64,000 bases of DNA, from the NCBI RefSeq assembly GCF_022690685.1, contig NZ_JALCYY010000018.1, positions 1-64,000 of the forward strand, written 5' to 3'. A program made the translations under genes and the position numbers. This document shows positions 9,117-15,439 of the stretch, piece by piece. The stretch comes from Anaeromyxobacter terrae (GTDB lineage: Bacteria; Myxococcota; Myxococcia; Myxococcales; Anaeromyxobacteraceae). The notes beneath the pieces were generated by a model that worked only from the letters and a program-made list of their open reading frames with translations, had not been told where the DNA came from and ran no database searches. Every line of letters begins with the position of its first letter. Within the stretch, counting starts at the first letter, position 1.

Positions 9117-10013
9117 TCAGGCCCGCGGGTGGAAGCGGTCGTACAGCCGCTTCACGTGGCTGCGATCCACGTGCGTGTAGATCTGCGTCGTGGACACGTC
9201 CGCGTGCCCGAGCATCGCCTGGACGGCGCGGAGGTCGGCCCCGCCCTCGAGGAGGTGGGTCGCGAACGAGTGCCGGAGCTTGTGGGGCGAGATGCGGCGC
9301 CGGATGCCCGCGGCGCGGGCGTAGCGCCCGAGGAGCTTGGCGAACCCCTGCCGCGTCATCCGGCCGCCCCGCGGCGTGACGAAGAGGTCCTTGGTGCGGC
9401 GCCCGCGCAGGAGCCGCTCGCGGGCGATGGCGAGGTAGGCCTTCACCGCCTCCGCCGCCGGCGCGCCCACCGGGACGATCCGCTCCTTGTTCCCCTTCCC
9501 TCGCGCGATGAGCACCCGGGTCTCGAGGTTCACGTCGTTGACGCCGAGCGAGACGAGCTCGGAGACGCGCAGGCCGGTCGCGTACAGGAGCTCGAGCATG
9601 GCGCGGTCGCGCAGGCCCGCCGCGCCGCGCGGGTCGGGCGCCGCGAGGAGCCGCGCGATCTCGTCGTGCGAGAGGAGCTCCGGCAGGCGCCGGCCCGGCG
9701 CCGGGGAGTCGATCTCGTCGGCCGCGTCGAGCGCGGTCAGCCGCTCCGCGAACAGCAGCCCGTGCAGCGAGCGGATCGCGGAGAGCGCTCGCGCCTGCGA
9801 GCGCGGCGAGAGCCCGCGGCGGACGAGCTCGGCGAGGTGGACCTGGATCTCGGTCCGGCCGACCCGCTCCCAGGCGGTGACGCCGAGCGCGTCGAGGTGC
9901 TCGACGTAGCGCCGCAGATCGCGCAGGTACGCCTCCACGCTGTTCTCGGCGAGGCCCTTCTCGACGCGGACGTGCGCGATGAACAGGTCGAGCGCGGGCT
10001 CGAGCGGCGACAT
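9117..10013 (-). CDS. xerD: Tyrosine recombinase XerD
   Basis: XerD-type recombinase that resolves chromosome dimers at dif together with XerC. The SAM-like N-terminal domain spans about 5-90. The catalytic residues are all visible: R149 (TGLRVSEL), K173, H244 and R247 (HKLRHSF), H270 (LGHADVST) and the nucleophile Y279 (IYTHV). At 298 residues it has the standard length. No attachment site, excisionase or phage gene is nearby, and the neighbours are housekeeping genes, so it is read as the chromosomal recombinase rather than an element integrase. Confidence 0.92.
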   Translation of the reverse strand: MSPLEPALDLFIAHVRVEKGLAENSVEAYLRDLRRYVEHLDALGVTAWERVGRTEIQVHLAELVRRGLSPRSQARALSAIRSLHGLLFAERLTALDAADEIDSPAPGRRLPELLSHDEIARLLAAPDPRGAAGLRDRAMLELLYATGLRVSELVSLGVNDVNLETRVLIARGKGNKERIVPVGAPAAEAVKAYLAIARERLLRGRRTKDLFVTPRGGRMTRQGFAKLLGRYARAAGIRRRISPHKLRHSFATHLLEGGADLRAVQAMLGHADVSTTQIYTHVDRSHVKRLYDRFHPRA

Positions 10014-10066: not shown

Positions 10067-10690
10067 TTACGCGAGCAGATCGGACACGTCGCCCTTGCCG
10101 ACGCGGAGCACCTGCGGCTCGGCGCCGGAGAGGTCGATCACCGAGGACGGCTCGTTCGGCTTGTAGCCGCCGTCGAGCACGAGCTCGAGGCCGTGCCCGA
10201 GCCTCTCCTTGATGTCGTGCGCGTCGATGAGCACCTCGCCGTCCGGGGTCGCCGCCGAGGTGGAGATGAGCGGGTGGCCGAGCCGCCGGACGATCTCGAG
10301 CGCGATGGGGCTGTCGGGGATGCGGATGCCGACGGTCTTCTGGCGGCGCAGGACGAGGTCGGGGACGAGCCGCGTCGCCGGGAGGATGAACGTGTACGGC
10401 CCGGGCACCTTGCGGCGCAGCACGCGGTAGGCGGCGTTGTCGACGATCGCGTAGCGCGAGATCTCGGCGAGGTCCTGGCAGATGAAGGACAGCTCGTGCG
10501 AGCGGGGCAGCTGCTTCAGCTGGTAGATCCGCTCGATCGCGCGCTTGTCGAAGAGATCGCAGCCCAGCCCGTAATAGGTGTCGGTCGGGAAGGCCAGCAG
10601 CCCGCCGGACGAGAGCACCGACACCGCCCGCTCGACCACACGGGGCTGGGGGTGCAGCGGATCGATCTCGACGATGGGGGCGACCGGCAT
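10067..10690 (-). CDS. Sua5/YciO/YrdC-family protein (threonylcarbamoyl-AMP synthase type)
   Basis: A 207-residue single YrdC-like domain with the nucleotide-binding signature AFPTDTYYGLGCDL (about 28-42) and the basic KQLPR motif; SVIDLSG lies near the C-terminus. Sua5/TsaC proteins make threonylcarbamoyl-AMP for t6A37 of tRNA. YciO relatives share the fold with a less certain role, and the sequence looks closer to YciO/TsaC than to long Sua5. The ATG at 10690 is preferred because AAGGAGG lies 5 bases upstream; an in-frame ATG at 10777 would add 29 unconserved residues. Confidence 0.87.
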   Translation of the reverse strand: MPVAPIVEIDPLHPQPRVVERAVSVLSSGGLLAFPTDTYYGLGCDLFDKRAIERIYQLKQLPRSHELSFICQDLAEISRYAIVDNAAYRVLRRKVPGPYTFILPATRLVPDLVLRRQKTVGIRIPDSPIALEIVRRLGHPLISTSAATPDGEVLIDAHDIKERLGHGLELVLDGGYKPNEPSSVIDLSGAEPQVLRVGKGDVSDLLA

Positions 10691-10861
10691 GGGCGCCTCC
10701 TTACTAGCAGTTTTCTCGGCCCGGTGGGAGGTTCGGAACGCCCCACCTTTCCAGCCGGCCCGTGCGTGGTCACGCACTCTCGGCGAAACGAGCGCGCCCG
10801 CCCGGGATCCCCGGACGGGCGCCTCGCGGCGTCGCCGCCGCGTTCAACTCCTCGCCGACCG

Positions 10862-11059
10862 TCAGCTGCGAGACTTGCCGCGCTCGATGAGCTCGCGGAC
10901 CTTCTGCCCGCCCTTGCGGCCGATCTCCTCGTAGAACGAGTGGCCGCGCTCGTCGCGGACGGCGATGCCGCCCTTGCGCCCCGCCTCCGACACCGTCATC
11001 CCACGGCGACCCTCTTCCGGCTCACCGCGCCGCGCGCCGCCCTTCTCTTCGTCCGCCAT
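10862..11059 (-). CDS. Small KGG-repeat stress-type protein
   Basis: A 65-residue, highly charged protein with two KGG motifs (AGRKGGIAV and IGRKGGQKV) around a HSFYEEIG unit. KGG repeats occur in GsiB/Con-10-like hydrophilic proteins linked to general stress or desiccation. It is a short paralogue of the gene at 11094-11486, sharing MTVSEAGRKGG and KVRELIE(R/K)GK. It lies 34 bases downstream on the same strand and has a G-rich ribosome-binding region before the ATG. Confidence 0.8.
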   Translation of the reverse strand: MADEEKGGARRGEPEEGRRGMTVSEAGRKGGIAVRDERGHSFYEEIGRKGGQKVRELIERGKSRS

Positions 11060-11093
11060 CGTACCCCCCCCTCAAGAGCACCTCATCGGTGCA

Positions 11094-11486
11094 TCAACGC
11101 TCGCCGCCCGTGTGCCCGGCGCCAGCGTCCTCCTCCGCCCCAGCCTTCCCCTTCTCGATGAGCTCGCGGACCTTGTGGCCGCCCTTCCGGCCGATCTCCT
11201 CGTAGAACGGCGTCCCGCGCTCGGCCTTGATCGTCTCGCCCCCCTTCTTCCCGATCTCCTCGTAGAAGCGCGGGCCGCGCTCGGCCTTGACGGTGTCGCC
11301 ACCCTTCTTGCCGATCTCCTCGTAGAACTTGCGACCCCGCTCGGCCTTGACGGTCTCGCCGCCCTTCTTGCCGATCTCCTCGTAGAACTTGCGACCCCGC
11401 GTCTCGCGGACCCGCACGCCGCCCTTGCGACCGGCCTCCGAGACCGTCATCGCTCCCTTGCTGCCGCCCTTCTTCTCCTCAGCCAT
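11094..11486 (-). CDS. KGG-repeat stress-type protein, four-copy repeat
   Basis: The ATG at 11486 (MAEEKKGG) gives 130 residues. After MTVSEAGRKGG come four copies of a 20-residue unit of the form FYEEIGKKGGETVKAERG, then a KVRELIEKGK end. The protein is hydrophilic and Lys/Glu/Gly-rich, like GsiB-type stress proteins. The start overlaps the end of the RimK-type ligase gene by 8 bases, so the two are co-translated or at least co-transcribed. A start at 11513 is possible but would overlap more and add nine unconserved residues. Confidence 0.83.
   Translation of the reverse strand: MAEEKKGGSKGAMTVSEAGRKGGVRVRETRGRKFYEEIGKKGGETVKAERGRKFYEEIGKKGGDTVKAERGPRFYEEIGKKGGETIKAERGTPFYEEIGRKGGHKVRELIEKGKAGAEEDAGAGHTGGER
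11161..11400 (-). repeat. 60-bp tandem repeat within the KGG gene
   Basis: Four 60-base units begin at 11161, 11221, 11281 and 11341. The last two differ at only two positions, which indicates a recent duplication. Each unit encodes one 20-residue KGG repeat, so copy-number change stays in frame. Confidence 0.9.
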
Positions 11487-12426
11487 TTGTCGCCCCCGTC
11501 CAGTCAGGAACAATGTGGTCGCTGGCCACGCGCCGGCGCAGCGCCCGACCGAGCACGTGCTCGGCGATGGCCTCCGCCATGTCGAGGCCCGTGGCCTCGA
11601 GGATCCCCTGCCAGCTGGGGTTCCCGTTCACTTCGATGACGGTGGGCCCTTCGGGTCCCACCACGACGTCGATGCCCGCGTAGTCGAGCCCGATCGCGGA
11701 CGCCGCAGCTTCGGCCACCGCCGCGAGCCGGGACCCGAGCGGCACCGCCTCGGCCCGGCCCCCGGTGGCCACGTTCGTGCGCCAATCCCCGGGAGGCGCG
11801 TGCCGCTCGATCGCGGCGCGTGCGCGCCCCCCGACCACGAACACCCGGACGTCGCGCCCGGGATGAGGAACGTAGCTCTGGAGGTAGACCGCGCCCTCTC
11901 GCGCGAGCCGCTCGCGGACCACGGCGCGCCCGCTGGTGTCCGCGCGGAGCCGCTCGACCCCGTCCCCGAGAGAGCCCGCGATCGGCTTCACGACCGCTTC
12001 CCCGAGCGCCGCGAGCGCGCCCTCCGCGCCACGCGCGGTCTGCGCCACCGCGGCGCGGGGCGTCCGCACGCCGGCGCGCGCCAGGAGCCACGACGTGCGG
12101 AACTTGTCCTGGGCGGCGAGGAGCGGGTCGATGCGGTTCACCACCACGGCGCCGGCGTCCTCGAGCGCGCGGTAGATCTCGAACTGCACGTCGGCGTCCC
12201 CCGCGCGGCCCATTCCCCGGGCGAGCACGAACGCGTCGAAGGTCTCGCCTTCGCGACCCTCCGCGGTCACCGATACGACGCCGTCGCTGTCCACGATCGC
12301 CGAGAGCTCCGCCGGATCGATCACCGCCGCCTCGCCGTGGCGAGCGCAGGCGCTGACGAGCCGCTTGCTGTGCCAATCGTCCTCGGGCCAGGCGGTCACG
12401 ATCCCGATTCGGATGACATCGTTCAT
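11479..12426 (-). CDS. RimK-type ATP-grasp ligase
   Basis: A 315-residue ATP-grasp enzyme. An N-terminal preATP-grasp domain (about 1-100) is followed by the ATP-grasp fold, with AAQDKFRTSWLL (about 108-119), VVKPIAGSLGDGV as the lysine/glycine-rich loop, and VIEVNGNPSWQGI carrying the metal-binding Glu and Asn. Family members add amino acids to carboxyl groups: RimK adds glutamates to S6, and LysX/MptN relatives use other acceptors. The protein it modifies cannot be read from sequence. It is followed, with an 8-base overlap, by a KGG-repeat protein. Confidence 0.85.
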   Translation of the reverse strand: MNDVIRIGIVTAWPEDDWHSKRLVSACARHGEAAVIDPAELSAIVDSDGVVSVTAEGREGETFDAFVLARGMGRAGDADVQFEIYRALEDAGAVVVNRIDPLLAAQDKFRTSWLLARAGVRTPRAAVAQTARGAEGALAALGEAVVKPIAGSLGDGVERLRADTSGRAVVRERLAREGAVYLQSYVPHPGRDVRVFVVGGRARAAIERHAPPGDWRTNVATGGRAEAVPLGSRLAAVAEAAASAIGLDYAGIDVVVGPEGPTVIEVNGNPSWQGILEATGLDMAEAIAEHVLGRALRRRVASDHIVPDWTGATNG

Positions 12427-12643
12427 GCGACGCTTGCTTCCCTTCCCCTACCCCGACCGCCCGCGCAACACGGTGTCCACGCCCGGTCGGCTGGACAAGA
12501 GCGCGCCATCCCGCATCTTTTCGGTGGTGCCCGAACGAGCCGCGCTGCGCTCCCCACGCGGAGGACGCAAGCACCGGGTCGTGAGAGATCGCGCGCCGCG
12601 AGCCGGCGCGGATGGGCTCCGCGATGACGCCTAGGGAGCGGGC

Positions 12644-15439
12644 CTAGCGCGAGCCCTGCTCGGGGCGGGAGAGCGCGGCGGTGAGCGCCGCGACCACGCG
12701 CGCCGCGCGCTCGCCCTCGAGCGGCGCGCCGTCGGGCGTGCGGACGTAGAAGGCGTCGGACGCACGGTGCCCCTCCGTGGAGATCCGGGCGAGATCCACG
12801 GAGAGGTTCAGCTCGTAGAACGTGCGGGCGAGCGTGTGCAGGAGCCCCACGCGATCGGCGGTGAACACGTCCACCACCGAGTGCGTGCGGGCGCTGTCGT
12901 TGTCGATGACGATCTTGGTGGGCACGCGCGGGAGCGGCTTCTCGGGGAGCGAGGAGGCACGCAGGCGGCGCGCGAGCAGCGCGTCGAGCGACTCCTCCCC
13001 TGCGAGCACGCGCGCGAGATCGGCCCGCGCCGCCCGCCAGCGCGCCGGCTCGACCGCGCCCTCCTCAGGCCCGCGCAGCTCGAACACGTCGAGCGCCCGC
13101 CCCGCGAGCCAGCCGAGGCCGGGATCCTCCGCGGTCGAGAACACCTCGGCGGCCTGGATGTCGATGCGGTGCGCGGCGAGCACGCCCGCGACGGTCGCGA
13201 GCAGGCCCGGCCGATCCCGCGCCGCGAGCGACAGCTCGGAGTAGCCGAGCGGCGGGTGGTGCCGGAGCGCGGTCGCGACCGGCAGGTCCCGCCCGAACCG
13301 CAGGAGCCGCAGGTGGCGCGGGGCGAGCGCGGGATCGACGGTGACGAAGTAGCGCGCCGGCATCGCCTGGACGAAGCGGGCGTGCTCCGCGTCGACCGCG
13401 CCCCCGCGCGCGCGGAGCGCGGCGGCGACGCGCTCGCGGCCCGCCGCCTCCGCGGTGCCCGGCTCCGGGCGGCGCTCGCCCCTCTCGAGCACCTCGCGCG
13501 TCTTCCCGTAGAGCTCGCGGATGAGCCGCGCCTTCCAGTCGGTCCAGGTGCGCGGCCCGACCGTCGCGATGTCCGCGTAGGTGAGGAGGTACAGCTTGTC
13601 GAGCCGGTCCTTCGTCCCCACCTCCTCGGCGAACGCGTGGATGAGGTCGGGGTCCGACAGGTCGCGCCGCTGCGCGATGGCGCTCATGCGCAGGTGCTTC
13701 AGGACCAGCCACTCGATGTCGGCGGCGTCGGCCGGGTCGAGCCCCATCCGCACGCACGCCTCGGCGGCGATCTCCGCCCCGCGCGCGGAGTGATCCTTCC
13801 CCGCCCCCTTGCCGATGTCGTGGAAGAGCGTCCCGAGGTACAGCGCGAGCGGCCGCTGCACCGTCCGCGCGAGGTCGCCGAGCCCGTCCTCCGTCACGTC
13901 GCCGCAGCGCAGCGCGAGGAGGCGCCGCACCGCGAACAGCGTGTGAACGTCCACGGTGTACACGTGGTAGACGTCGATCTGGCGTCGCGCCGTCACCCGC
14001 GCGAACTCGGGCAGGACGCGGGGAAGGACGCCGATCTCGTGCATCAGCGTGAGGAAGCGCCCGCGCGTCCCCGGGCGCGTGAAGCACGCGAGCAGCTCCT
14101 GGTTCAGCTCGGGATCGCTCGCCGCCTCCGGCGCCAGCTCCTCCGCGGCCTGCGCGGCGAGGTCGCGCGCGTAGGGGTAGAGATCGAGCTGCTCGCGATC
14201 GGCGGTCGCGAAGAGGCGCACGAGCGCGGCCGGGGACCGCCGCAGGACGTCGGTGTCGACCACGGTGAGCCGCCCGCGGAAGACCTTGAACTCCCCGCCG
14301 GGCAGGAGCCGCTCGGTCGAGCGCGCCGGCCGCCCGCCCATCACCGGCACCGCCCGCTCGGCGCCGAGGGTCGCCGCGGGCGGCGGCACCATGCGCCAGC
14401 CCATCGCCGCCTGCGGCTCGAGGCAGCGGTCCACGATCGCGTCGCTGGCGACGAGGACCGTCTTCGCCGCCAGGTAGTAGTGGCGCATGAACTCCTCGAC
14501 GGCCGAGCCGTGCTCGCGGTCGAGGTAGCCCATCGCCCGCGCCACCTCGGGCTGGACGTCGAAGGTGAGCTGGTCCCACTTGCGGCCGGCGAGGTAGTGC
14601 ATCTCGTTGCGGACGCGCCAGAGGAAGTCGCGCGCGCGCCGCATCTCGCGGATCTCGCGCTCGGGGAGGAGCGCGCGGGCGAGGAGCTCGGTGATCCCGG
14701 CCACCTTGAAGCGGACGCGGGCGAGCCAGAGGGCGGACTGGAGGTCCCGGAGGCCCCCCTCCGACTCCTTCACGTTCGGCTCGAGGAGGTAGATCGAGTC
14801 GCCGAACCGCTCGCGCCGCGCGCGCATCTCGTCGAGCTTGTCGGCGAGGAACTTCTCCACCTTCTGGGCCGAGAGCCCGTGCAGCTCCTCGCGCTCGAGC
14901 TCCGCGTACAGCGCGCGATCGCCGGCGAGCCAGCGCAGGTCGAGGAGCGCGGTGCGCGCGGTGTGATCCTCGGTGGCGAGCTCGTCGCAGGCCCGGAGGT
15001 CGCGCACGCCGTAGCCGACCTCGAGCCTCAGGTCCCACAGCGAGTAGAGGAACCGCTCGCTCGCGGCCTTCACGAAGGCGTCGGGCTCGCCCGGGCCGTG
15101 CAGCACGAGGAGATCGAGGTCGCTGAACGGCGCGAGCTCGCGCCGCCCGTAACCTCCGAGCGCGACGAGCGACACGGCCGTGGGCGCCCGCTCGTCGCCG
15201 GCCGCGACGCAGGCGCGCTCCCACAGCGCCGCGACGATCCGGTCCATCGCCGCGCTCTGGAGGCGGACCACCGTGTGGCCGCTCCCCCCTGCGCGGTGCA
15301 CCTCCTCGACGAACCGGCGCTGCGCGGCGAAGTCCGCCTTGACGTCGCCGGTGAGCGGCGGCAGCTCGGCCAGCCGCGCCTCGAACTCGAAGGGCGCCGC
15401 GGCCGGCAGGGTCGGGTGGACGTCGGGCAGGCGCATCAC
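12644..15439 (-). CDS. glnD: [Protein-PII] uridylyltransferase / uridylyl-removing enzyme
   Basis: This is the bifunctional nitrogen sensor that uridylylates PII when glutamine is low and removes UMP when it is high. The nucleotidyltransferase motif GGYGRRELAPFSDLDLL (about 95-111) holds the two catalytic Asp. A GlnE-like helical domain follows, then an HD hydrolase domain (LFHDIGKG, about 540-560) and two C-terminal ACT domains (about 750-830 and 860-930) that bind glutamine. At 931 residues it has the full domain set. It is followed on the minus strand, 217 bases away, by the rimK/KGG genes, and lies 22 bases past the amidase gene. Confidence 0.93.
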   Translation of the reverse strand: MMRLPDVHPTLPAAAPFEFEARLAELPPLTGDVKADFAAQRRFVEEVHRAGGSGHTVVRLQSAAMDRIVAALWERACVAAGDERAPTAVSLVALGGYGRRELAPFSDLDLLVLHGPGEPDAFVKAASERFLYSLWDLRLEVGYGVRDLRACDELATEDHTARTALLDLRWLAGDRALYAELEREELHGLSAQKVEKFLADKLDEMRARRERFGDSIYLLEPNVKESEGGLRDLQSALWLARVRFKVAGITELLARALLPEREIREMRRARDFLWRVRNEMHYLAGRKWDQLTFDVQPEVARAMGYLDREHGSAVEEFMRHYYLAAKTVLVASDAIVDRCLEPQAAMGWRMVPPPAATLGAERAVPVMGGRPARSTERLLPGGEFKVFRGRLTVVDTDVLRRSPAALVRLFATADREQLDLYPYARDLAAQAAEELAPEAASDPELNQELLACFTRPGTRGRFLTLMHEIGVLPRVLPEFARVTARRQIDVYHVYTVDVHTLFAVRRLLALRCGDVTEDGLGDLARTVQRPLALYLGTLFHDIGKGAGKDHSARGAEIAAEACVRMGLDPADAADIEWLVLKHLRMSAIAQRRDLSDPDLIHAFAEEVGTKDRLDKLYLLTYADIATVGPRTWTDWKARLIRELYGKTREVLERGERRPEPGTAEAAGRERVAAALRARGGAVDAEHARFVQAMPARYFVTVDPALAPRHLRLLRFGRDLPVATALRHHPPLGYSELSLAARDRPGLLATVAGVLAAHRIDIQAAEVFSTAEDPGLGWLAGRALDVFELRGPEEGAVEPARWRAARADLARVLAGEESLDALLARRLRASSLPEKPLPRVPTKIVIDNDSARTHSVVDVFTADRVGLLHTLARTFYELNLSVDLARISTEGHRASDAFYVRTPDGAPLEGERAARVVAALTAALSRPEQGSR

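Follow-up and report, generated by a model that had tools for sequence, protein, structure and literature searches.

What does an amino-acid ligase of the RimK family act on when its gene runs into that of a small repeat protein predicted to be disordered? The locus that raises this question lies in the window, by which we mean the whole 64,000-nucleotide stretch of Anaeromyxobacter terrae DNA that was analysed. Its minus strand carries, in order, GlnD (15439..12644; Pfam GlnD_UR_UTase, 2e-44), the ligase (12426..11479; 315 residues, stop codon 11481-11479), a KGG/LEA_5 protein that we call KGG1 (11486..11094; 130 residues, five repeats), a second KGG protein, KGG2 (11059..10862; 65 residues, one FYEEIG motif), TsaC of the Sua5/YrdC type (10690..10067; NCBIfam TIGR00057, 3.6e-61) and XerC (10013..9117). 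GlnD and TsaC thus flank the ligase-KGG cassette upstream and downstream. Among named relatives the closest is Anaeromyxobacter soli SG29; the two ligases share 95% identity. A search of 10650-12750 found no sigma-70 promoter or intrinsic terminator, a result that carries little weight in a GC-rich genome.

An earlier sequence-only reading had noted an 8-base overlap between the ligase stop and the KGG1 start, with a second KGG gene following, and had proposed KGG1 as the target of amino-acid addition, citing ribosomal protein S6 as a known RimK target. The layout is borne out, KGG2 included, and all coordinates hold: positions 11486-11479 read ATGGCTGA, and although a longer listed open frame for KGG1 begins at TTG 11513, the ATG at 11486-11484 is the conserved start. 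The overlap exceeds chance. It recurs in all 13 cassettes of the home family, f1 (8 bp in 12 of them, 11 bp in one), and KGG2 lies downstream in each. In substitution rates computed from nine of these 13 cassettes, identity at four-fold degenerate sites is 0.53 over the ligase gene as a whole and climbs to 0.78 in its final 12 alignment columns, which fits a constrained start or ribosome-binding region for KGG1. The probable ribosome-binding region is the purine-rich stretch ACGGGGGCGACAA at 11487..11499, inside the 3′ end of the ligase gene, which is conserved in relatives in the form ACGGGGGCGACAC / GCGGGAGCGAACC.

The enzyme belongs to the RimK family (Pfam RimK PF08443, 3.8e-27, 95.5 bits; NCBIfam rimK_fam TIGR00768, 177 bits with a cut-off of 143.4), and most orphan members of this family carry an annotation as S6 ligase or generic glutamate ligase. 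It falls below the cut-off of every specific equivalog tested: MptN, the tetrahydromethanopterin glutamate ligase, which is its top-scoring NCBIfam model (211 against 350 bits); LysX (150 against 275.6); the GAK-system ATP-grasp TIGR04356, itself a hypothetical equivalog (120 against 300); S6-specific RimK, PRK10446 (109 against 331); and the graspetide enzymes MvdC (25 against 425) and GRASP_SAV_5884 (52 against 350). The KGG-linked ligases form a clade of their own, separate from both RimK and the methanopterin-cluster ligases (support 92/98), and phage relatives are remote, at 20-24% identity. The predicted structure is of modest quality (pLDDT 69, pTM 0.53). Foldseek places RimK first, but because the global superposition is poor (TM ~0.47, rmsd 13) the match gives support at the level of the fold only.

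Pseudomonas RimK contacts its poly-Glu chain through S7, R8, S14, R64, S68, R189 and N262, according to the part of PMC10092738 that treats these contacts, and we mapped the contact residues through Salinivibrio RimK and not the Pseudomonas sequence itself. The ATP-grasp catalytic residues K108, K147, R208, R216, N218, E265 and N267 are kept in 19/19 KGG-linked ligases, and the donor and catalytic side, comprising the equivalents of RimK R189, R203, R211, E260 and N262, is likewise intact in all 19. The two poly-Glu acceptor contacts R8 and R64 are lost throughout, R8 being replaced by Ala or Gly and R64 by Ala, Val, Leu or Gly, whereas RimK paralogues retain R8 in 16/17 and R64 in 17/17. Since the catalytic residues are preserved and the poly-Glu contacts are gone, the acceptor probably differs from that of RimK, and judging by these residues the protein is probably an active enzyme with a rebuilt acceptor groove.

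Two familiar acceptors can be set aside on indirect grounds. S6 is ruled out by the low S6-model score, by the lack of a significant N-domain match (Rimk_N, 14.8 against 26.4 bits), by the missing acceptor residues and by a separate RimK paralogue in the same genome, which has the RimK N-domain and scores 315 bits to the S6 model, just below its 331-bit cut-off. The comparison with S6 drawn earlier therefore fails in detail, the more so as the C-terminus of KGG1 is unconserved. Methanopterin deserves consideration because the nearest plasmid relatives of the ligase, ~36% identical, sit beside mch and fae in methanopterin/methylofuran clusters, where RimK-like enzymes extend the poly-Glu chain of the coenzyme, as a passage of PMC8141765 describes. 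Those plasmid ligases differ in having Ile at the R211 equivalent in 4/4 cases, where the KGG-linked enzyme keeps Arg, and they and MptN fall outside the KGG-linked clade. We found mch in 0/60 relatives, so these organisms have no methanopterin pathway, judged by mch as marker, and methanopterin is rejected as the acceptor.

The partner, KGG1, is a repeat protein that resembles GsiB and LEA group 1 and is predicted to be disordered. It exceeds the gathering thresholds of both Pfam LEA_5 (PF00477, 4.4e-11, 43.5 against 40 bits) and Pfam KGG (PF10685, 2.6e-10, 40.8 against 20.4 bits), and AlphaFold2 gives it a mean pLDDT of 37 and no confident fold. KGG2 passes the KGG threshold (2.8e-4, 21.6 against 20.4 bits) and lies below that of LEA_5 (16.6 against 40). 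Firmicutes plasmids encode relatives of KGG1 that bear the name 'general stress protein' or KGG domain protein and share 43-50% identity with it, but no ligase is listed beside the four copies looked at. Elsewhere in the A. terrae genome (G000), further KGG-like matches occur at C66:154978-155028 (L001, L159) and C60:4407-4568 (L160), and the strongest single KGG repeat sits in a 522-residue open frame.

The KGG1 gene (11094-11486) evolves in a manner unusual for a predicted-disordered protein, with a core that is near-invariant between genera while its synonymous sites have strongly diverged: across nine f1 genomes the core is 99.3% identical, and four-fold sites are only 57.9% identical. The ligase is rejected as the cause of this extreme conservation, as the ligase-free family f9 is frozen to much the same degree (97% identity of the core, two genomes).

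How faithfully do the two genes travel together? A profile built from 20 ligases and searched against 195 Myxococcota genomes found an orthologue in 21, all at 312 bits or above, with the next match at no more than 185 bits. KGG1 (E 1e-12 or better) is present in 105 of the 195, among them all 21 with the ligase, so that a ligase without KGG occurs in 0 of the 21 ligase-bearing genomes. Co-occurrence, which had been proposed as a check, thus holds in one direction: the ligase implies KGG, but KGG does not imply the ligase, which is missing from 84 of the 105 genomes with KGG1. Many relatives therefore have a KGG1 that functions with no such enzyme. In gene order, the ligase precedes KGG genes in 21/21 genomes; in one of these, G044, it is split across two contigs and its C-terminal part adjoins KGG1. 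Within f1, both genes occur in 13 genomes, neither in 11 and a single gene in none. Among the plasmid matches listed (30 of 57 ligase records), no record has both a ligase and KGG.

Part of this adjacency is inherited synteny, because the cassette occupies a conserved AmiC-GlnD-[ligase-KGG]-TsaC block. The whole cassette is missing from three sister genera within f1. At nine of ten GlnD loci in f1 genera without it, TsaC follows GlnD directly; the tenth shows no ligase, KGG or TsaC within reach. On the GlnD tree, presence and absence of the cassette within f1 take at least three changes. KGG also occupies this position without a ligase, as AmiC-GlnD-KGG-TsaC in f7 and GlnD-KGG-TsaC in f4, which indicates that its place is older than the ligase or independent of it. 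The pair stays together elsewhere: G030, G032 and G037 have the two genes side by side although GlnD and TsaC are absent from the 11-13 kb examined around them, which favours a functional link.

The KGG content of the block varies. Ligase-free f7 has about four KGG genes of varying repeat number between GlnD and TsaC (L115, L051-L059). The KGG gene that immediately follows the ligase in f6 and f8 encodes an Ala/Lys/Arg-rich, histone H1-like N-terminal half joined to a KGG repeat unit (L102:5982-6479, L103:6315-6644, L108:6122-6424), and similar short Lys/Arg-rich KGG proteins are found in f7 as well.

A tree of rpoB and rpoC places ligase-free f4 as sister to ligase-bearing f2 (98/95). These two fall in one clade with f3, which also has the ligase (100/98), and f8, again with the ligase, groups with f5 and f7, which do not have it (94/97). 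With this topology, loss of the ligase in several lineages is likelier than a single gain, and f4 in particular, being sister to f2, has probably lost it.

Four KGG1 repeats carry the motif FYEEIG, and it is the second Glu of this motif that tracks with the ligase. In A. terrae the four candidate acceptors are Glu37 (codon 11376..11378), Glu57 (11316..11318), Glu77 (11256..11258) and Glu97 (11196..11198), all on the minus strand. Written as FYExIG, x is Glu in 4/4 repeats in 20 of the 21 ligase-bearing genomes and in none of the 84 that are ligase-free (105 KGG1 proteins). The lone exception, G030, reads Q,E,E,E and has the most divergent ligase of all; counted by family, f8 is the one that combines the ligase with Gln in repeat 1. 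Where the ligase is absent, x is T,E,E,E in 70 genomes of f4 (two more are fragmentary), E,Q,Q,E or E,Q,A,E in seven of f7 (one more is fragmentary), E,Q,Q,E or A,A,A,E in f9 and S,A,A,A in f5. The departure of f4 from the all-Glu pattern is therefore confined to one of the four sites, the Thr of repeat 1. Fragmentary rows aside, the first Glu of the motif never varies, whether the ligase is there or not. The second residue varies in Firmicutes GsiB-like proteins (D, N, K, E, Q), so that Glu at this place is not a general KGG requirement, and the ligase-tracking Glu is missing from the second KGG paralogues of f3 and f8.

We scanned 102 columns of the KGG1 core for residues fixed in at least four of the five ligase-bearing families and in only one of the four ligase-free ones. 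Five columns qualified: 14 (Thr) and 37, 57, 77 and 108 (all four Glu), of which 37, 57 and 77 belong to the FYEEIG sites. Permutation of the family labels gave 2/126 for the four FYEEIG sites and 9/126 for all Glu columns; scan and permutation exclude three fragmentary KGG1 rows (G055, G098, G099), which the count of 20/21 against 0/84 includes. By parsimony on the rpoBC topology, with 16 genomes and the ligase assumed to be ancestral, the four sites changed five times on ligase-bearing and eight times on ligase-free branches, compared with 78 and 38 changes elsewhere in the protein (Fisher p = 0.06). The correlation was noticed post hoc and then counted, and it spans nine families in which the 70 genomes of f4 amount to one event. 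In our view it is a lead, phylogenetically thin and not a proof, that points to a testable site.

We favour the reading that a dedicated ligase modifies the KGG1 protein encoded beside it, most likely on the side chains of the second Glu of FYEEIG, and put its probability at about 40%. The grounds are the enzyme family, the intact catalytic residues, the changed acceptor groove, the conserved pairing and the correlated glutamates. The ligase would use ATP to activate a carboxylate as an acylphosphate and would then join an amino acid to the side-chain carboxylate of the second Glu of the repeats, rather than to the C-terminus. Either a single amino acid or several, probably Glu, would be added in this way, and the modification may alter the charge or the chain branching of KGG1 as a disordered stress protein of the GsiB/LEA type. 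We infer KGG1 as the substrate, the second Glu as the site and Glu as the probable addition, and stress protection would be its purpose. The earlier proposal of KGG1 as target thus survives in outline, through the conserved pairing and the internal repeat glutamates, and loses its S6-like detail. Further points against modification of KGG1 are that the protein is kept without a ligase in four-fifths of the genomes that have it (84/105) and that conservation of its core is similar in f9. A bolder version we consider doubtful: in it, a new RimK-family ligase attaches one or more amino acids to the second Glu in every FYEEIG repeat, and lineages that lost the enzyme swapped that Glu for Gln, Ala, Ser or Thr.

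The ligase might instead make a small molecule that serves the same stress response, be it a modified cofactor or a gamma-glutamyl or oligo-amino-acid compound, with KGG1 merely co-expressed. That its best NCBIfam model, MptN, is a small-molecule ligase, that its plasmid relatives adjoin mch and fae and that its acceptor groove is unlike that of RimK all speak for this, but the 211-bit score stays under the MptN cut-off, mch is missing from all 60 relatives, and beside the ligase we saw no conserved small-molecule biosynthesis gene, its constant partner being KGG. The Glu correlation in KGG1 would also go unexplained, and on balance we hold this to be rather unlikely. It is less probable still that the two genes are passive neighbours, a ligase of unrelated role having come to lie beside KGG in an inherited GlnD-TsaC block and the two being lost jointly through their overlap. 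One deletion can remove both of two overlapping genes, KGG holds the same position in f7 and f4 although no ligase is there, and an independent-pairs test cannot reach significance because it has only three pairs; yet the pair is intact without the flanks in G030, G032 and G037, and a ligase without KGG is found in 0/21 genomes.

The remaining alternatives keep KGG1 or KGG2 as substrate and change the chemistry. LysX and ArgX, which with their carrier LysW would be the closest functional analogue, being RimK-like ligases that act on a small protein encoded nearby, add their amino acids to the C-terminal Glu of LysW, and this counts in favour of tailing at the C-terminus of KGG1 or KGG2. RimK adds residues to the end of S6, according to PMC10092738. 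Against such tailing, the KGG1 C-termini of ligase-bearing genomes vary in sequence and length (with ends such as GER, DDR, DHR, EHH, RGE, HEK, KKE, EEEE and KGD), and unlike LysW they have no conserved C-terminal Glu; KGG1 from ligase-free genomes mostly has Glu as its last residue (13 of the 14 C-termini read), the opposite of what tailing would lead one to expect; and the ligase has lost the poly-Glu contacts of RimK. We accordingly reject tailing of KGG1, whose C-termini are not conserved, and find C-terminal addition to either protein very improbable. The lowest probability falls to graspetide-like cross-linking, in which the ligase would link the Glu side chains of FYEEIG to those of Lys, Ser or Thr in the same KGG1 molecule and so staple the repeats. 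KGG1 is repeated and rich in Glu and Lys, the same Glu correlation would fit, and Foldseek lists the graspetide ligase PsnB (E ~1e-17), although below RimK, LysX and ArgX and with a query model of modest quality. The graspetide-enzyme models are far under their cut-offs, and we recognised neither a protease nor an exporter gene in the cassette, whose flanks are partly annotated.

To our knowledge, KGG, GsiB and LEA group 1 proteins are widespread stress proteins for which no mechanism has been agreed. In the papers covered by our literature search we found no modifying enzyme for them, and no link between a RimK-type ligase and a KGG protein. One paper, PMC11942099, contains both the RimK and the KGG words, but its topic, judged from title and abstract, is mammalian metabolism. 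Should the bolder version hold, a disordered stress protein of the LEA/GsiB type would have its own dedicated post-translational modification, which would be a bacterial counterpart, in kind and not by descent, of the side-chain glutamylation of tubulin. Modification of KGG1 would also give the RimK family a new acceptor. With a linked ligase and a predicted site, the modification of KGG1 is directly testable by mass spectrometry.
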